Assembly (NCBI GenBank): GCA_017624715.1
Contig: JAGAMN010000026.1
Span: 1-32,485 of the forward strand
Reading direction: 5' to 3'
DNA from: Oscillospiraceae bacterium
GTDB taxonomy: Bacteria > Bacillota > Clostridia > Oscillospirales > Oscillospiraceae
DNA length: 32,485 bases
The notes under the pieces were generated by a model. The model saw nothing but the letters and a program-made list of their open reading frames with translations, did not search any database and had not been told where the DNA came from. Below, one piece after another: positions 1,993-22,182 of the stretch; within the stretch, counting starts at the first letter, position 1, and the number at the start of each line of letters is the position of its first letter. The position numbers and the translations under genes are program-made.

Positions 1993-2313
1993 ATGAACAA
2001 TCAAACCATTCCGTCCTTGAATCAACGAATCCGCAAGGGACGGCTTACCAAAGAGGATGTAGCCCGGCGGCTGGCAGAGTTGGCTTTTGGAAAAGCCAAT
2101 GACTGCGTCCGGCTGGTGCTGGAGGAAAAAGCAGAGCTGGGAAAGTTGGATTTAAGTCTGCTCAGCGAGGTCAAGCGCAATGACAAGGGTACAGTAGAGG
2201 TGAAGCTGGTGGATCGGCTGAAAGCACTGGAGCAGTTGGCGCTGCTGGCCCAAGAGAATGGAGAGGACCTGGAATCCTTCCTGAAGGCGCTGCAAGGGGA
2301 GAACGGCCAATGA
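1993..2313 (+). CDS. terS: Putative phage terminase small subunit
   Basis: A 106-residue charged, helical protein beginning MNNQTIPSLN. The ATG at 1993 follows AAGGAGGGGCACA, and its TGA stop overlaps the start of the large terminase (ATGA). Position and size fit the small terminase, which recognises the packaging site and loads DNA onto the large subunit. No motif is diagnostic on its own: the call rests on synteny with the terminase, portal, protease and capsid genes that follow. Residues about 10-40 could form a DNA-binding helical region. An upstream in-frame extension to 1708 has no ribosome binding site and runs antisense to the carboxypeptidase, so I reject it. Confidence 0.65.
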   Translation: MNNQTIPSLNQRIRKGRLTKEDVARRLAELAFGKANDCVRLVLEEKAELGKLDLSLLSEVKRNDKGTVEVKLVDRLKALEQLALLAQENGEDLESFLKALQGENGQ

Positions 2314-3563
2314 GCTACACCAGTTTTTCCGCAAAGCAGAGAACGGTGCTGACCTGGTGGATGCCGGGCAATCCCTATGCGGGCAAGGAAGCTATTGTGT
2401 GTGATGGAGCGGTGCGGTCGGGGAAGACCCTGGCCATGGGCCTGTCCTTTTTTCTGTGGGCTATGACTTGCTTTGATGGGCAACGGTTCGGCGTTTGCGG
2501 GAAGACCATCTCATCTCTAAGGCGAAATGTCTTGTCGGAAATATTGCCCAGGATCAAGGCGCTGGGTGGCACCTGGAAGGAAAAACGGACAGAGAATCTG
2601 GTAACGGTGACGTTTAAGGGACACAGGAACCAGTTTTACATCTTTGGCGGACGGGATGAAAGCTCTGCCAGTTTGATCCAGGGCATTACCTTTGCTGGGG
2701 TGCTGATGGATGAGGTGGCGCTGATGCCCCGCAGCTTTGTGGATCAGGCCTGTGCACGGTGTTCGGTGGAGGGAAGCCGGCTATGGTTTAACTGCAATCC
2801 TGCCGGGCCCAGTCATTGGTTTTACAAAACATGGATCCAGGAGGCGGAGCAACGAAATTGTCTGCGGCTGCATTTTACCATGGAGGATAATCCGTCATTG
2901 ACGGAGCAGATCCGGCAACGGTATCAAAGGCTATATACCGGGGTGTTTTACCGTCGGTTTATCTTGGGTCAATGGGCTCAAGCCGAGGGCCGGGTTTACG
3001 ATTTCTTTGGCCCGGATATGGTCAAGCCCGTTCCTCTGGGAGCGTATGAAAAGTGGTATGTTTCCTGCGATTACGGCACGGTCAATCCCACATCTATGGG
3101 TTTATGGGGGCTGATGGATGGGGTTTGGTATCGGGTGCGGGAGTTTTACTTCAATTCCCGGGAGGCAATGCGGCAGATGACCGACGAGGAATATGCTGCG
3201 GCATTGGCGGATTTGGCAGGACACAGGAAATTGACGGCGGTGATCGCAGATCCTTCGGCGGCCAGCTTTATTGAAACATTGCGCCGGAAGGGCTACCGGG
3301 TTATCAAGGCAGATAACGATGTACTATCCGGAATCCGACTGACCTCGGATTGCTTGAAGGATGGCAGAATCGTGATCTGTGAGGGCTGTAAAGACTGCCT
3401 CCGGGAAATGGACGAGTATGTATGGGATTTGGGAAGCGAAGCCAAGGATCGGGTCAAGAAGGAAAACGATCACGCCATGGATGATATGCGTTATTTCGTT
3501 GCCACAGTACTCAAAACTCCGGAAGCGGGGTTTGCTGCCTGTGCTGTGGCACGGAAAAAATGA
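2310..3563 (+). CDS. terL: Phage terminase large subunit (ATPase and nuclease)
   Basis: A 417-residue packaging motor that pumps DNA into the prohead and cuts it. The ATPase half shows Walker A GAVRSGKT (33-40), Walker B VLMDE (131-135) with the catalytic Glu, and a coupling motif FNCNP (160-164). The RNase H-like nuclease half has three acidic clusters: Asp254 in VSCDYGT, Asp314 in VIADPS, and Asp391/392 in NDHAMDDMRY. The order, length and motifs match PBSX/SPP1-type large terminases. All catalytic positions are present, so the gene looks functional and not decayed. It overlaps terS by 4 bases and abuts the portal gene. Confidence 0.93.
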   Translation: MSYTSFSAKQRTVLTWWMPGNPYAGKEAIVCDGAVRSGKTLAMGLSFFLWAMTCFDGQRFGVCGKTISSLRRNVLSEILPRIKALGGTWKEKRTENLVTVTFKGHRNQFYIFGGRDESSASLIQGITFAGVLMDEVALMPRSFVDQACARCSVEGSRLWFNCNPAGPSHWFYKTWIQEAEQRNCLRLHFTMEDNPSLTEQIRQRYQRLYTGVFYRRFILGQWAQAEGRVYDFFGPDMVKPVPLGAYEKWYVSCDYGTVNPTSMGLWGLMDGVWYRVREFYFNSREAMRQMTDEEYAAALADLAGHRKLTAVIADPSAASFIETLRRKGYRVIKADNDVLSGIRLTSDCLKDGRIVICEGCKDCLREMDEYVWDLGSEAKDRVKKENDHAMDDMRYFVATVLKTPEAGFAACAVARKK

Positions 3564-3577
3564 AAGGAGCGATCAAT

Positions 3578-4729
3578 TTGAAACAAAAGAAAAAAGATGT
3601 GCCGATGACGGCCAGGGCATGTCAGCTGCGGAACACCCAAAGCTATCCCTTTGGGGCGCTGCACAGCTTTGTGCCCCTGGGCACCGGTGAAGAAGTAGTA
3701 TACCGCAAACTCAGGGAGGCCATTCCTGTACTGGATGCGGCGGTGGGAAAGCTGGTTCGGCTGACCGGTGGTTTTCGGGTCAAGTGCCGCAGTCAGGAAG
3801 CCCAGAAACGGCTGGAGCAATTCCTGCGGTATGTACCCTGCGGTCGGGGACAGGAGGGTATAGACAGCTTTTTGAGCGGCTATCTGGACAGCTTGCTGAC
3901 CTACGGCAGAGCGGTGGGTGAAATGGTGGTGGCAGGCAATCATCTTCGGGCAGTCTGCTGGGGTGATGTCACCGCATTACAGGTGCAGGAGGGGGACAAC
4001 GCCCTGGAGACGGTACTGTATGGTCCTGATGAAAATGGGTATATGCGGCCACTGCCGTATCCCCATCTGCTGCTGTTTACTGCCTTGAATCCGGAACCTG
4101 CCCATCCCTACGGTGTAAGCTTATTCCGAGGGATGCCTTTCCTGGCGGATATATTGATGAAGATCTATGCCACCATTGGAAGCAACTGGGAGCGGGCCGG
4201 CAATGTACGGTACAGTGTGGTTTGTAGGAATACGGAAAACATGGATGCGTCCCAAATTCAGCAGCGAGGGGTCCAGATGGCTAACGAATGGGCCAAGGCC
4301 ATGGAGGACTGTAAGAACGGCACGGTTCGTGATTTCGTGGCGGTGGGAGATGTGCAGATCAAGGTTATTGGCGGTGATGCACCGATCTTGGATTCTCAGA
4401 TCCCGGTACGGCAGATGTTGGAGCAGCTGGTGGCAAAGACCGGCCTACCGCCTTTTCTGCTGGGATTGCACTGGAATTCTACAGAACGGATGAGTGCCCA
4501 ACAGGTGGATATTCTCACCGCGGAGCTGTGGGCTCTGCGCCGGGCGGTGGAGCCTGTCCTGCGGAAAATTTGTAAAACCTATCTGTCCCTGGAGGGGCTG
4601 GACGACCGGGTGGACATCCAATGGGAGGACATCAGCCTGCAGGATATTACCCGGGAAGCACAGGCGGAGCTTTACAAGGCGCAGACTGAGAAGCTGCGCC
4701 GGGAAATGGATGCCGAAAGGCAAAATTAA
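3578..4729 (+). CDS. Phage portal protein
   Basis: A protein of about 383 residues that forms the dodecameric ring through which DNA enters and leaves the capsid. A TTG at 3578 is the preferred start because AAAGGAGC (3563-3570) lies 7 bases upstream. The in-frame ATG at 3560 overlaps the terL stop and would place that site inside the gene. The C-terminal half has the long helical stretch and the segment TGLPPFLLGLHWNSTERMSA typical of portal proteins, in which the leader to the tunnel loop follows a phage 'GLPP' motif. The tail (DITREAQAELYKAQTEKLRR) is a coiled-coil crown-like helix. Its place between terminase and protease is the standard order. Confidence 0.85.
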   Translation: MKQKKKDVPMTARACQLRNTQSYPFGALHSFVPLGTGEEVVYRKLREAIPVLDAAVGKLVRLTGGFRVKCRSQEAQKRLEQFLRYVPCGRGQEGIDSFLSGYLDSLLTYGRAVGEMVVAGNHLRAVCWGDVTALQVQEGDNALETVLYGPDENGYMRPLPYPHLLLFTALNPEPAHPYGVSLFRGMPFLADILMKIYATIGSNWERAGNVRYSVVCRNTENMDASQIQQRGVQMANEWAKAMEDCKNGTVRDFVAVGDVQIKVIGGDAPILDSQIPVRQMLEQLVAKTGLPPFLLGLHWNSTERMSAQQVDILTAELWALRRAVEPVLRKICKTYLSLEGLDDRVDIQWEDISLQDITREAQAELYKAQTEKLRREMDAERQN

Positions 4730-4747
4730 CATATCAAGGAGGCAATT

Positions 4748-5644
4748 ATGGAGATCAAAAAGGAAACCCAGGTGCACAGCAGCGGTGTTCCTACCCAGGT
4801 GCAGCTGGAGGCCATCAATGCCCAGGCCAGGGCAAAAATGACTGCAGAGCAGGTTTATGTGTTCTCTCTGCGGCTTTGTGATGACCAGGTAGACCGTGAT
4901 TATGAGCGGTTCGATACGGCTGCGCTGCCTACATTGGCGAGAATGTTCATCGGCAAGACCGGTATTGTGGATCACCGCTGGAGCAGCGATTCTCAGGTAG
5001 CACGGATCTTTGCGGCAGAAGTGGTCCGGGAGGAGGGTGTGAGCTACATCAAGGCCTGGGCTTATATCCGCAGAGGCGGCAATGCTGATGAGATCATTGC
5101 CGATATCGAGGCAGGTATCAAGAAGGAAGTCAGTGTTGGCTGCTCCATGGGCTTTTCCAAATGCTCTGTCTGTGGCGGCGAATACGGTATTTGCGGCCAT
5201 CAGAAGGGTGAAAGCTACGATGGGCAGGTTTGCTGCGCAATCCTGCAGGAGCCGATGGATGCCTATGAATTTTCCTTTGTGGCTGTGCCTGCACAACGAT
5301 CTGCCGGTGTGATCAAGGGCATGGGCGGCAAGCAGATGTGTCTGAAGGAACTGGCGGAGAATTTTGGGGCGCAGGCGGAATACCGCACACTTTACAAACA
5401 GGCCCAGTTGGGCATTGCCTATGAAAAGCAGCTTCGCAGCGATGTGGTGCGGCTGTGTCTGTCTTTGGAACTGGGGGTGGAAGAACCGGTTCTGCGCAGT
5501 GTCATGGATAAGGCCGGGGCAGAAGAACTGGTGAAGCTGAAGACGGCTTTGGAAGCGCGCATCCGGGAATACATGCCCGTGGTGACCCAGCTGGGACTGG
5601 GCAACAGCAAACAGGAAACTGTGGAAAGCGGTTTTTTAATCTAA
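4748..5644 (+). CDS. Prohead (capsid maturation) protease with a cysteine-rich insert
   Basis: 298 residues with AAGGAGG 4-10 bases upstream of the ATG. The first 190 residues resemble HK97-type prohead proteases: an early DRDYERF segment, His76 in GIVDHRWS, a candidate nucleophile Ser129 in KKEVSVGCS, and the closing YEFSFVAVPAQ strand. Between Ser129 and that strand lies Cys139-x2-Cys142, Cys149-x-His151 and Cys162-Cys163, a probable zinc-binding insert. Residues 195-298 are helical and could be the scaffolding part that is removed at maturation, as in fused protease-scaffold proteins. No separate scaffold gene exists here, which fits that idea. The catalytic assignment is by motif, not alignment. 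Confidence 0.78.
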   Translation: MEIKKETQVHSSGVPTQVQLEAINAQARAKMTAEQVYVFSLRLCDDQVDRDYERFDTAALPTLARMFIGKTGIVDHRWSSDSQVARIFAAEVVREEGVSYIKAWAYIRRGGNADEIIADIEAGIKKEVSVGCSMGFSKCSVCGGEYGICGHQKGESYDGQVCCAILQEPMDAYEFSFVAVPAQRSAGVIKGMGGKQMCLKELAENFGAQAEYRTLYKQAQLGIAYEKQLRSDVVRLCLSLELGVEEPVLRSVMDKAGAEELVKLKTALEARIREYMPVVTQLGLGNSKQETVESGFLI

Positions 5645-5659
5645 GCATTTGGTGAGATG

Positions 5660-5695
5660 GATTCTTCGACTCGCATTCGCTCGCTCAAAATGACA
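5660..5695. repeat. Half-copy of a dispersed REP-like repeat inside the head operon
   Basis: The sequence GGATTCTTCGACTCGCATTCG followed by CTCGCTCAAAATGACA is the same family, in the opposite sense, as the repeats at 11952-12028 and 20469-20598. It lies in the 115-base gap between the protease and capsid genes. Confidence 0.75.
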
Positions 5696-5759
5696 AGTTT
5701 TAATTAGGTTTTGCCGGCAAAAGTCGGTGACCATATATTACACAAGGAGGAAAATAAAT

Positions 5760-6785
5760 ATGGGTTATGAAAATCTGAGACTGGAAAAGGGCATGTACCG
5801 CCAGGCGGGCATGAACTTTACCCAGGTGCTGGAATCTCTCGATCCCAGCGAAAACTATCGCGGCACTGCGCTGGAGGGCACCGATGCCTTCCAGCGTCAG
5901 CTGAAGCGTTTTGGCATCCGTGCCAAGGGTGCAGGCTCTTCCAAGGTGGAGAAATTCTTTTCTACCATGGACAGTGCTGTTTTGTTCCCTGAGTACATCG
6001 CACGGACCGTTCGTCAGGGTATGGAGGAGAATGATATTCTGCCTGCTATCACTGCAACCACCACGGTAATCGATTCTAAGGATTATCGCTCCATCTACTC
6101 TGTTCCCACAGAGGAGGATCTGTGCAGCCATTGGCTGAGTGAAGGTGAGAAAATTCCTGAGACCGAAGTCAAGACCAAGGAAAACCTGGTTTCTCTGACT
6201 AAGCGGGGCAGAATGCTGGTGGCTTCGTACGAGGCAATCCGTTATCAGAAGCTGGATCTGTTCGGCGTCATGCTGCGCCAGATCGGCGCCCACATCCAGA
6301 AGCAGCAGCTGAGTGATGCTGTCAATGTTTTGATTGATGGCGACGGCAATGACAATGAGTCTGTAGAATATGTTGTTGGCAATACACCTATTGCAGGGCC
6401 TTCCGGTACCCTGGGTTATGAACAGCTGGTGGATTTCTGGGCACAGTTTGATCCCTTTACTATGAATACCATTCTCTGCAATAACAATATGCTGACCAGA
6501 ATGCTGAAGATCCCGGAACTGCAGAATCCTATGACCGGCCTGAATTTCCAGGGCACCGGCAAGCTGGGTACACCTCTGGGCGCACAGATGTATCGCTTGA
6601 ATATGGTACCTGAGGATATTATCATCGGTCTGGATAACCGCTATGCGCTGGAGATGGTGAAGGCCGGTGATGTGATGGTCGAGTATGATAAGCTGATCGA
6701 CACCCAGCTGGAGCGGGCTGCCATTACCTTTATTTCCGGTTTCGGCAAGATCTGCAAGGGCGCTTCCGCACATCTGAGCGTATGA
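5760..6785 (+). CDS. Phage major capsid protein (HK97-fold type)
   Basis: A 341-residue shell protein. The ATG at 5760 follows AAGGAGGAAAATAAAT; an in-frame ATG at 5727 would bury that site. A flexible N-terminal region (about 1-60) precedes the folded part. Features fitting the HK97 fold are the glycine-rich central region, the hydrophobic strand-rich C-terminal half and the closing ITFISGFGKI segment. The position directly after the protease supports the call. Its TGA overlaps the next gene's ATG. A REP-like fragment just upstream separates it from the protease without touching its ribosome binding site. Sequence motifs for capsid proteins are weak, so synteny carries much of the weight. 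Confidence 0.8.
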   Translation: MGYENLRLEKGMYRQAGMNFTQVLESLDPSENYRGTALEGTDAFQRQLKRFGIRAKGAGSSKVEKFFSTMDSAVLFPEYIARTVRQGMEENDILPAITATTTVIDSKDYRSIYSVPTEEDLCSHWLSEGEKIPETEVKTKENLVSLTKRGRMLVASYEAIRYQKLDLFGVMLRQIGAHIQKQQLSDAVNVLIDGDGNDNESVEYVVGNTPIAGPSGTLGYEQLVDFWAQFDPFTMNTILCNNNMLTRMLKIPELQNPMTGLNFQGTGKLGTPLGAQMYRLNMVPEDIIIGLDNRYALEMVKAGDVMVEYDKLIDTQLERAAITFISGFGKICKGASAHLSV

Positions 6786-7138
6786 TTTTGACGGAAAGAA
6801 TCGTCGCCCAGGCGAAGCTTCTGATTCGGGATTTTGAGGAACAGAATCTTCCAATGCTGGAGCTGCTGTGCAGATCGGCTGAGACTACCCTGAAGGCAAA
6901 GCTCCGGGATGGCATTCGTGCAGAGGATTGCATTGCGGATTTTGTGGCTTCTGCGGCATTGTTCGCTGTGGCGGCAATGACAGAGTTGGATGAAATCGCC
7001 CAAATGGAGATGGTCACGGTAGGCGATTTGACTTTGCGCCGCAAGAGTACCGACGCGGCAGCTTGCTGCCTGCGGTATCAGGCGGAACTGCTGATGTCAC
7101 CCTATATGGCAGATACCTTTGCGTTTGTGGGGGTGTAA
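6782..7138 (+). CDS. Putative head-tail connector protein
   Basis: A 118-residue, mostly helical protein that starts in a 4-base ATGA overlap with the capsid gene. Small helical proteins in this position usually form the connector ring under the portal (HK97 gp6 / SPP1 gp15 class). No residue motif identifies it with certainty. The C-terminal part has a cluster of Cys (AAACCLRY). Confidence 0.5.
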   Translation: MILTERIVAQAKLLIRDFEEQNLPMLELLCRSAETTLKAKLRDGIRAEDCIADFVASAALFAVAAMTELDEIAQMEMVTVGDLTLRRKSTDAAACCLRYQAELLMSPYMADTFAFVGV

Positions 7139-7140
7139 GC

Positions 7141-7479
7141 ATGCAAAGTACCGTGGAAAAAATTCTGCGTAAGTACGGCAGGGAAATCACGGTGGAGCGT
7201 GGGGAGGAAAGCCTTGTTTTTCAAGGCTTCTTTCACCACACCGGATCTAAAGACTGGCATAATATGGAAAAGGCATACACAGTGCTGGGTCAGATCCCCA
7301 GAGGCCAATACCTTGTAATGGCTCCTACATGGATAAAACTGGCTATGGGTGATAGGATCTGCTGTGACGGAAAACGCTATTCTGTCCGCCGGGTAGAGGG
7401 CGAGACATTCCAGGAAGAACGGATTTACAGCTGGGCGCTGTGCGTAGAGCTGGGCAAGGAGGACACATGGCCGATATAA
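7141..7479 (+). CDS. Small phage head-completion or head-tail joining protein (unrecognised)
   Basis: 112 residues starting MQSTVEKILRKYG, 2 bases after the previous stop, with GGGGGTG upstream. The composition is strand-rich with a late conserved-looking stretch (GDRICCDGKRYSVRRVE). Head-closure or stopper proteins of siphophages have this size, place and beta content (SPP1 gp16 class), but I cannot name it from sequence alone. An in-frame start at 7063 lies inside the previous gene and is less likely. It overlaps the next gene by 13 bases. Confidence 0.5.
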   Translation: MQSTVEKILRKYGREITVERGEESLVFQGFFHHTGSKDWHNMEKAYTVLGQIPRGQYLVMAPTWIKLAMGDRICCDGKRYSVRRVEGETFQEERIYSWALCVELGKEDTWPI

Positions 7480-8132
7480 TGTCAAATGTAACTTCGGTGC
7501 TGCGTTCTGCCGGATATCGGACCGGTAATGCAAACCCCGGCAGCGTTATGCCGGAAATCACAGAGCCTGTTGTGGCTGTGAATTTGGAACGGGCCGATAT
7601 GGAGGCCCGTACAGCGGTTGTACGGGTTACGGTTGTGGCACCCTTGGTTTTGGGTGCCAGGTCCTGCGAAGAACAGGGCTTGGAAATTTGTAGGGTTCTG
7701 TCTGGATTGGGCGGAAAATGCGAATTACAGCCCTGTAAGTTCAATGCCAAAACCGAGATGTTCAGCACGGCAATACTGGTAACTTTTCAGGGAAATGTGC
7801 TGGACGATAACTGGGTGATGGGAGATCTGTGCCAGGTGCGGTTTGGGTCGGGCTACTATTTGAACAAGGTGATATCGTTTACCTCCTGGCAAGAGTCAGA
7901 GGAAGGAAAAACCTTGGCAGATAGCAGCTGGAAGATCCGGGTGGAGGAGCAGCTGGATGCCATCCGATTGGAGGAAGTGCCTTCTGGAGTCACTAAAATT
8001 ACGGTGACTTTCGAAGATGGTCAGGAGGCGTACAATGAATGTAAGCTCACCGGCAGGAAACGGATCATTCAAGACGGTACATTGGTGCAGGTCTGGGATG
8101 CGACAGCATTGAACAGGACAATCGATTCCTAA
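7467..8132 (+). CDS. Last gene of the head module, possible tail-completion-type protein (unrecognised)
   Basis: 221 residues; the ATG at 7467 follows CAAGGAGGACAC. The first 110 or so residues (MADIMSNVTSVLRSAGY...) have the size and alternating pattern of tail-terminator or neck proteins. The second half contains a strand-rich segment (VRFGSGYYLNKVISFTSW) and ends TALNRTIDS. It could be two small domains fused. It is the final gene before a strong terminator. In an intact siphophage the major tail protein, tape measure and later genes would follow here, and none do. The function is not established. Confidence 0.4.
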   Translation: MADIMSNVTSVLRSAGYRTGNANPGSVMPEITEPVVAVNLERADMEARTAVVRVTVVAPLVLGARSCEEQGLEICRVLSGLGGKCELQPCKFNAKTEMFSTAILVTFQGNVLDDNWVMGDLCQVRFGSGYYLNKVISFTSWQESEEGKTLADSSWKIRVEEQLDAIRLEEVPSGVTKITVTFEDGQEAYNECKLTGRKRIIQDGTLVQVWDATALNRTIDS

Positions 8133-8140
8133 AAAGGAAA

Positions 8141-8166
8141 GCAGGGTGTTAGCACCCTGCTTTTTT
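8141..8166. terminator. Bidirectional terminator between head module and rrf2
   Basis: GCAGGGTG (8141-8148) pairs with CACCCTGC (8153-8160) around TTAG, followed by TTTTTTATTT on the plus strand and TTTCCTTTTT on the minus strand. It ends the head module and the convergent iscS-iscU-rrf2 operon. Confidence 0.85.
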
Positions 8167-20675: not shown

Positions 20676-20710
20676 AACCCCCTGTTTTCGTTAAGCGAAA
20701 ACAGGGGGTT
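20676..20710. terminator. 15-bp hairpin at the IS left end containing the transposase stop codon
   Basis: AACCCCCTGTTTTCG (20676-20690) pairs perfectly with CGAAAACAGGGGGTT (20696-20710) around the 5-base loop TTAAG. The TTA at 20691-20693 is the transposase stop on the minus strand. The hairpin lies just inside the inverted repeat. It could stop outward or inward transcription. Confidence 0.8.
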
Positions 20711-22115
20711 TGGGCATATTAGGGCTAAACAACAGGCATATTGTGGAGAAAAAGGAGTTATCCCAACTCCAATTTGCCAGCTTTTTCAGATTCATGGCAG
20801 CATATTTAAGCCTGACCCATCTCGTGACTGCGGCCAAGCCTCTATGGTGTGTATATCGCATCGCATGCTTCTCTTTTGCATCCGCAAAGACACGTTCAAT
20901 CGTTTCTTTGCGCTGTGCATAAATTCTCTTAGCACGCTCTGTCTTTCGTATCTGTTCTACCAGATCCAGATACTCTTGCCAAATATGAGCTGTGAATATC
21001 TTTTGTCCCTTTTCGTTAGCTCCACACTTTGCTTTACAAGGACAATTTGCGCAATCCTTGGGTGTGCTGCGGTATGTTCTTTTGCCATCCCGGTCTGTAG
21101 TGGTATGCCGTAACACACCTCCACGAGGGCAAATATAGGTGTCATTTACGGGATCGTAGGTGTATTCCCAGGGTTTATAACGTTCCTGACTTCCATGGTA
21201 TCTTGTGTAGGGCAGAATCGGTACTTTTCCGTCGTCAAAGGTCTTCTTCGCTATCCAGGGGGTCTTATAGCCAGCATCCATTGTTACGAATTGAACATTA
21301 TGCTTTTGAGTAACTTCGTCGTAGAGTTTATCCCAGGCTACACTGTCGTGCACATTACCTGCTGTTACTTCTACACCAAGAATAAATCCTCTGCTGTCGC
21401 AAGCGGTGTGCGCTTCGTAGGCAAACTGCCGCTCATGCTCGCCTTTTACAAACATTCCGCTTTCCGGGTCAGTCGTCGATACCGTCTTTTCTACGGTTCC
21501 ACCGCTGGTAGGATTCTGGGGATCGTTGTCATCCTCATCATCTTCAATAGGTTTCTTGCCTAGCTTCTCACGCTCTGCATTTACCTCACGACGCAGCTGG
21601 CCGGAATATACCTTTGCAGCTTTCCTTACCTGTTCCTTCTGGTATTTCTTCTTGTTGGCGCTGGCTTTGATATGCGTGCCGTCAATGAAAATGGTGCTGG
21701 GATCTACCATGCGGTTGTTTAATGCCTTGTTAAGAATGTGCTCAAAGATTTCTGTGGTCAGCTCATCCGGAAACCGCTTGCAAAAGGCGTAGCTCACCGT
21801 TGCAAAGTGAGGAATATTATCCAGCAACCCATATCCCAAAAACCAACGATATGATAGTGTATCCTGTATCCGTTGATATGTCTGTCGCAGGGAGGGTATG
21901 CCATACAAATGCTGTATGACTACCATCTTTATTAAAACAACTGGATCCGTGCCAGGTCTGCCGTTGTCATGGCAGTAGTACGGATCTAACCGCTCATACA
22001 GCCATTCGTAATCCATAACCTTTTCAATCTTACGTAGCAAATGATCTTGCGGTACTAGGGCCTCCAAATCCACGATGATTGCTTCATTTCTTGCATCTTT
22101 TCGCCACTGCTCCAT
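20691..22115 (-). CDS. IS1182-family transposase
   Basis: A 474-residue DDE transposase. The N-terminal domain (HLLRKIEKVMDYEWLYERL, PYYCHDNGRPGTDPVVLIKM) is the DUF772 region of IS1182/IS5-like elements. The catalytic part has FIDGTHIKA (first Asp, about residue 145), TMDAGYKT (second Asp), and an ERVFADAKEKHAMRYTHHRG (C-terminal Glu) segment. A zinc-ribbon-like Cys cluster (CPRGG, CANCPCKAKC) lies between. The Met at 22115 follows GGGGGTG; an in-frame start at 22178 would begin inside the terminal repeat and is less likely. The stop codon sits in the hairpin loop at 20691-20693. Confidence 0.93.
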   Translation of the reverse strand: MEQWRKDARNEAIIVDLEALVPQDHLLRKIEKVMDYEWLYERLDPYYCHDNGRPGTDPVVLIKMVVIQHLYGIPSLRQTYQRIQDTLSYRWFLGYGLLDNIPHFATVSYAFCKRFPDELTTEIFEHILNKALNNRMVDPSTIFIDGTHIKASANKKKYQKEQVRKAAKVYSGQLRREVNAEREKLGKKPIEDDEDDNDPQNPTSGGTVEKTVSTTDPESGMFVKGEHERQFAYEAHTACDSRGFILGVEVTAGNVHDSVAWDKLYDEVTQKHNVQFVTMDAGYKTPWIAKKTFDDGKVPILPYTRYHGSQERYKPWEYTYDPVNDTYICPRGGVLRHTTTDRDGKRTYRSTPKDCANCPCKAKCGANEKGQKIFTAHIWQEYLDLVEQIRKTERAKRIYAQRKETIERVFADAKEKHAMRYTHHRGLAAVTRWVRLKYAAMNLKKLANWSWDNSFFSTICLLFSPNMPKPPVFA

Positions 22116-22182
22116 AAAATACACCCCCGTTTCCACTATTATAGCAGAAATGAGGGCTTGTTGGAAGTTTTTTGACAAGCTG

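Follow-up and report, generated by a model that had tools for sequence, protein, structure and literature searches.

Eight phage head and packaging genes of an Oscillospiraceae bacterium probably belong to a dispersed gene transfer agent-like system

The window analysed here, a 32,485-nucleotide contig of an Oscillospiraceae bacterium (JAGAMN010000026.1, assembly GCA_017624715.1), carries eight tightly packed phage-type genes on the + strand at positions 1993–8132, with every frame open. This module is probably the head and DNA-packaging operon of a dispersed, domesticated and vertically inherited system that resembles a gene transfer agent (GTA) and has a collapsed tail. The host genus is most likely Candidatus Faecousia, family Oscillospiraceae; the portals of named Faecousia genomes are 68–72% identical to that of the window, inside the range of its genus-mates. 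The module is intact, present in a single copy per carrier and under purifying selection, and it is inherited vertically, co-diversifying with its host. The operon, its leader and its terminator comprise the following features.

1928–1965, + strand: leader hairpin, GCGAGTTGCAC-loop-GTGCAACTCGC and then a T-rich run (stem-loop 1928–1955); a cis element common to lysis and fibre genes.
1993–2313, + strand: small terminase TerS, 106 residues; Terminase_2 profile, matched from model position 54 of 141, N-terminal part absent.
2310–3563, + strand: large terminase TerL; Terminase_6N/6C profiles, motif residues retained.
3560–4729, + strand: portal; phrog_30703, E 6e-148.
4748–5644, + strand: head protease by position; phrog_16951 (function unknown). 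The gene at the same place in a Tepidibacter plasmid (L072) is annotated as an XkdF-like serine protease.
5760–6785, + strand: major capsid protein; phrog_3922 major head protein, E 2e-100, and Phage_capsid_4.
6782–7138, + strand: head-tail connector by position, 118 residues; present in 36 loci, without a Pfam or PHROG match.
7141–7479, + strand: head-tail connector or stopper by position, about 112 residues; present in 36 loci, without a Pfam or PHROG match.
7467–8132, + strand: predicted tail terminator (residues 1–114) fused to a tail tube (118–221), from profile and predicted fold.
8135–8166, + strand: intrinsic terminator hairpin closing the operon, fold z −4.7.

The original prediction, made from the letters of the window, described eight packed genes that end at a strong terminator between a cell-wall gene and an Fe-S operon. 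Both points hold: one flank is a Peptidase_S11 carboxypeptidase and the other an Rrf2/IscR gene, followed by IscU and IscS (the latter two by sequence). The last three genes had been read as connectors, which stands by position for two of them, for which the Pfam and PHROG search found no family at E ≤ 0.01; the third is the terminator-tube gene. TerL is matched once in a profile search of the whole genome, at the head operon. This genome is a metagenome-assembled genome (MAG) of 2.27 Mb, and a search of it with PF03354 gave no match, TerL belonging to the Terminase_6 group instead. The residues R36, S37, G38, K39, D134, E135, D254, D314, D387 and D391 are unchanged in 41 of 41 relatives. To that extent, and with the frames open, the earlier statement that TerL keeps all its catalytic residues is borne out, although which of the invariant residues are catalytic is our assumption.

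A portal search of 149 relatives found the gene in 45 of 91 same-genus genomes, in single copy and 66–83% identical (leaving aside the window's own portal), as well as in 4 genomes of other genera. An evenly drawn sample of 394 genomes of the order gave 70 portal positives in 41 of 168 genera, always with one copy. Gene order is constant in 37 same-genus loci (the window and 36 fetched), as far as the contigs extend. Seven of the 37 have an extra gene of about 112 residues ahead of the capsid gene, and 17 have one of about 120 residues behind the last gene, at least three scanned copies of which match DNA_circ_N. A scan of the viral_contigs set with the single sequence found no relative, and a query with the portal alignment found 366, the best 80 of which were taken (L156–L235, about 4–18 kb). 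Many of these may be chromosomal clusters labelled as viruses. Two records labelled "Bacteriophage sp.", MT835769 (L074) and MT835952 (L075), carry the same cluster; their flanking genes are host-type by eye (recG-like and thymidylate synthase-like; rRNA-methylase-like), so both look like fragments of bacterial chromosome.

Inheritance was assessed in 24 of 29 Faecousia genomes, leaving out G003, G020, G025 and G049 (fragmentary rpoB) and G030 (truncated module). Distances from concatenated TerL, portal, protease and capsid track the rpoB distances with a Mantel r of 0.735, which none of 2000 permutations reached (maximum 0.551). The module and rpoB trees have 9 of 22 splits in common, where the random expectation averages 0.14. 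The rpoB tree lacks four well-supported module splits, which leaves room for occasional exchange. Median omega (dN/dS; Nei-Gojobori, 13 chosen pairs, 9–13 pairs per gene with dS under 1.5) is 0.12 for TerS, 0.09 for TerL, 0.08 for the portal, 0.12 for the protease and 0.065 for the capsid, and 0.30, 0.20 and 0.22 for the last three genes in order. Host genes in one pair gave 0.05 (iscS), 0.025 (iscU), 0.11 (a SpoIVB/PDZ gene) and 0.22 (dacA). The relaxed selection that the original prediction had proposed to look for is thus not seen, omega lying far below 1. Its suggestion of a domesticated module is supported by the one copy per positive genome, the agreement with the rpoB tree, the purifying selection and the lack of any integrase seen.

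These values also bear on the possibility that the module is an old prophage fossil, one of the original alternatives, which persists only because loss is slow. Its patchy presence would fit, as would the loss of tail genes, which extends to the tube half in five loci, and the interruption of some portal genes (4 of 41 loci) and of the 7141–7479 connector (1 of 36). However, omega of the first five genes stays at 0.065–0.12 over pairs with substantial synonymous divergence, the frames remain open at rpoB divergences of up to 20%, and the leader is conserved with compensatory changes. Omega far below 1 strongly disfavours neutral decay of the head genes, and we regard a fossil as very unlikely.

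The small terminase bears a further mark of known GTAs. The Terminase_2 match begins at model position 50–54 of 141 in five of five genus members, and at 2–7 in five others (Oscillibacter-type, rumen Oscillospiraceae and Tepidibacter). TerS of L074 is also short, with a match from position 58 just under the cut-off, and that of L052 gave no Terminase_2 match. We take the absent N-terminal part to be the DNA-binding part. Sherlock et al. 2019 (PMC6854486), on whom this assumption also draws, describe the small terminase of the Rhodobacter capsulatus GTA (RcGTA) as lacking its N-terminal DNA-binding domain and propose this as a hallmark of GTA TerS. By its sequence, the Faecousia TerS appears to be without its N-terminal part in the same way.

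The hairpin at 1928–1955, just ahead of TerS, had been overlooked by the original prediction. Its core, GTTGC-N10-GCAAC, ends 41 nt ahead of the TerS start in the window and is found in 30 of 37 Faecousia loci and in none of the four loci of other genera in that set; a looser pattern occurs 37 times in total in 865 kb of loci. Because the upstream gene is divergent in the window, there is no obvious transcript from that side for the hairpin to end, and since the T-run is missing in several members, the label "terminator" is not certain for all leader hairpins. Thirty leaders were chosen for covariation analysis by the core GTTGC/GCAAC pattern, which is why the five core pairs are invariant. 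The outer and inner pairs covary, with 35 double-change cells against 10.1 in shuffles (0 of 500), and shifting the partner strand lowers pairing from 91% to 34–44%. A role as a DNA operator only was considered as well; the covarying inner pairs set it back, though they do not exclude it. A covariance model (R1), trained on 29 head leaders and five lysis or fibre leaders, finds the hairpin ahead of TerS in 7 of 55 other-genera loci at E ≤ 0.014, 16 to about 160 nt before the start, with a weak eighth. One clade (L036, L037, L038, L042 and L045) has a different leader before TerS (TTTTGCA...TGCAAAA).

In the genome to which the window belongs, copies of this hairpin also stand upstream of a lysis cassette and of a BppU-like fibre gene (G000:C20 and G000:C31), and these two sites and the head locus are its three best hairpin loci. 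The cassette consists of an amidase and two small membrane-type proteins. The association recurs in relatives, where 9 of 15 strong non-TerS hairpin sites outside the R1 training set precede lysis-type or fibre genes. Lysis and fibre genes therefore sit at loci apart from the head operon and behind the same leader hairpin, and may be co-regulated with it. The terms "stranded" and "head-only", applied earlier to the module, are not supported. Eight portal-negative genomes gave no strong hairpin match; a ninth, G056, was reassigned as the 46th carrier when TerS was found behind the hairpin near a contig end. Outside the genus, weak matches lie before a lysozyme-like fragment (E 0.02, G257) and a phage-terminase-like gene (E 0.03, G321), both by eye. 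A similar hairpin stands ahead of related function-unknown genes (MTEENYNYRTSQ...) in two loci of other genera, L494 and L497 (G476 and G389).

The fibre genes have their base in common and differ at their C-termini. They are present in 24 of 45 carriers and 11 of 46 non-carriers of the genus, an association that is only suggestive because prophages, too, carry BppU-like domains. Profiling the amidase of the window's genome across the 149 relatives was uninformative because endolysins of different types follow the hairpin. The fibre gene adjoins a sigma-70-family gene in the window's genome (L346), and an rplS-like gene (by eye) in L450, L451 and L457. Another conserved upstream stretch is common to the fibre genes of G051, G076, G029 and G084, which are of the same or close species as the clade with the diverged leader.

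Of its tail genes, the operon retains a single terminator-tube protein, of which some relatives keep just the terminator half. The assignment of the last gene as a tail terminator fused with a tail tube comes from predicted fold and profile, and the fusion is the last gene in 31 of 36 loci. Tail genes of the same prophage might have lain elsewhere in the genome, as the original prediction had considered; no baseplate J was found in the own MAG, which is 86% complete. A related cluster in Oscillibacter (L136) has a sheath and a baseplate. At its tape-measure position (L136:16677-17258) lies a 193-residue protein without a Pfam or PHROG match; if this is the tape measure, the contractile tail there would be very short.

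The small tail also raises the possibility of a capsid domesticated for another use, in which DNA-filled or empty particles would serve in killing, DNA repair or nucleoprotein export, as in PBSX-like or encapsulin-like systems. A search for baseplate J was negative in 20 of 23 genus carriers, 5 of 36 loci lack the tube half, and PMC12946183 describes PBSX as a particle that packages DNA but does not inject it. Against such a role, the conserved terminase and portal point to DNA packaging, and fibres with a common base and differing C-termini suggest target binding. We consider it the less probable use of these genes, though one to be reckoned with.

The surroundings of the operon bear on a capsid-forming phage satellite (cf-PICI-like), which would package itself in its own capsids and borrow the tails of a helper. 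The packaging and capsid gene set without a full tail had suggested this in the original prediction. That prediction also stated that tail, lysis, replication and integrase genes are lacking. No tail-length, integrase or replication gene adjoins the operon among the window genes scanned, but a terminator-tube gene is present and lysis loci lie elsewhere. The ten right-hand genes scanned (10.3–19.2 kb and 20.7 kb) are of host type (GAF, SpoIVB, VTC, CotH and others) except for a DDE transposase at 20691–22178 on the − strand (DDE_Tnp_1_6 and DUF772), 12.5 kb away from the head operon. In other loci, 99 of 194 listed neighbour genes from 26 loci were scanned; their 25 commonest families are host families, with no integrase or replication family among them. 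Together with this, the agreement of module and rpoB trees, the truncated TerS, the operon's own terminator-tube protein and the leader held in common with lysis and fibre genes make a satellite highly improbable.

The location of the operon itself is not fixed. The position between dacA and iscR, a region that the original prediction had proposed to compare across relatives, is retained in the nearest species only: L032 keeps both sides, L066 the iscR side, and L040 has a dacA relative on one side. The neighbourhood differs in other species, and related species have the same neighbours. An M23 peptidase gene lies two genes downstream of the last gene in five loci of one clade (L036, L037, L038, L042 and L045). 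In the window, the Peptidase_S11 carboxypeptidase (368–1822, − strand) has Pro-Thr-Glu repeats at both ends (PT repeat).

A GTA-like system built from these parts could work as follows. A factor would act on the hairpin, as an attenuator, an antitermination site or a protein target, and switch on the head, fibre and lysis loci together. TerS and TerL would load small capsids through the portal with unselected chromosomal DNA by random headful packaging. The neck would be shut by stopper and terminator, with the tube ring where present, and the BppU-like fibre would attach there. The amidase and the two small membrane-type proteins would lyse the cell, and the released particles would bind related cells and deliver DNA.

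More tentatively, and at somewhat less than even odds in our judgement, the GTA-like family in Oscillospiraceae may have shrunk stepwise from a contractile-tailed prophage. The steps would lead from the sheath, baseplate and 193-residue protein of Oscillibacter through separate terminator and tube genes to the Faecousia fusion, and then to the terminator half alone. The scattered head, fibre and lysis units would remain one regulon, led by the same RNA hairpin as the target of a trans-acting factor that would trigger gene transfer and lysis at once.

Several observations weigh against a GTA-like system. Particles, random packaging, delivery, co-expression and lysis are predictions from the sequence, and no baseplate or tape measure for delivery is known. 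No portal match was found in 46 of 91 genus genomes, complete ones included (G019, 100%; G001 and G013, 99%), which makes the system either dispensable or frequently lost. The last gene has 103–130 residues in 5 of 36 loci (L046, L058, L066, L067 and L069), encoding the terminator half with no tube half after it, and the interrupted portal and connector genes count on the same side. The hairpin link is imperfect: 6 of 19 strong non-TerS sites (E ≤ 1e-3) are not next to phage-type genes, and the phage-type label of one other site depends on its likeness to the small amidase partner in the window's genome. The exact hairpin is missing at 18 of 30 fibre genes, where some degenerate forms and one clade with a diverged leader occur, and a scan of 26 genomes of other genera placed none before a lysis cassette or fibre. 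Pairs changed on both sides are not unusual in number (6 against 4.5, 64 of 500 shuffles). Finally, the incomplete own MAG carries two rpoB copies (G000:C3 and G000:C44) and is thus slightly mixed.

Among known systems, PBSX/Xkd-type myophages such as that of the Tepidibacter plasmid NZ_CP120734 (L072) have the same order of TerS, TerL, portal, XkdF protease, capsid and connectors, with a portal 46% identical. Unlike the Faecousia operon, L072 is one cluster annotated with a tape measure of about 796 residues, a DNA circularization protein, baseplate J, tail proteins and a holin. Capsid-forming satellites encode a packaging and capsid set and resemble the module in having these genes without a complete tail. 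The Faecousia module differs in its vertical inheritance and dispersed lysis and fibre genes, and no integrase or regulator was found adjoining it; the integrase, regulatory genes and mobility between hosts that define such satellites are not seen. It has in common with GTAs chromosomal phage-derived structural and packaging genes, vertical inheritance and purifying selection, and no replication or integration genes were found with the cluster, either in the window genes scanned (save for the distant DDE transposase) or among the 25 commonest neighbour families.

By description, RcGTA and the Caulobacter GTA (CcGTA) are likewise domesticated phage structural clusters, although of another phylum. 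Both have a tail with a tape measure and a baseplate hub. CcGTA also has accessory genes elsewhere and is controlled via termination (PMC11150451), and its antitermination control is a lead, by analogy, for the role of the Faecousia hairpin.

The closest known system appears to be FpGTA of Faecalibacterium (Borodovich et al., Nat Commun 2026, PMC12946183), likened by description and not by sequence; no Faecalibacterium-named genome is among the best 80 of 582 relatives. In that paper, FpGTA has two operons and forms 40-nm particles without identifiable tails that hold about 9 kb of DNA. The two systems, both of gut relatives, have in common a head and packaging operon with TerL, portal and capsid, a TerS without an obvious DNA-binding domain, and tail fibre and lysis genes at a separate locus. 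In contrast, FpGTA I has ten genes in 10.5 kb with a head scaffolding gene, where Faecousia has eight in 6.1 kb, and FpGTA II is a single 5.5 kb operon with a baseplate gene, where no baseplate J was found in Faecousia. The terminator-tube fusion, the separate lysis and fibre loci and the leader hairpin common to the loci also set Faecousia apart; the words "hairpin" and "promoter" are absent from the main text of PMC12946183. GTA-like packaging of Oscillospiraceae (Onthomonas) DNA was seen there in human faecal particles, and four MAGs were searched, one of them Oscillospiraceae, of which only the Faecalibacterium MAG gave a candidate operon. Within the paper collection searched, no text joins Faecousia or Oscillibacter with the term "gene transfer agent". 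Faecousia-type operons are candidates for the missing Oscillospiraceae GTA operons, and the common hairpin offers a way to search for the scattered parts of a GTA using nothing but sequence. As the tail of a DNA-packaging particle, the terminator-tube fusion would be very small. If such particles deliver DNA as proposed, a lineage widespread in the gut possesses its own inbuilt means of exchanging genes.
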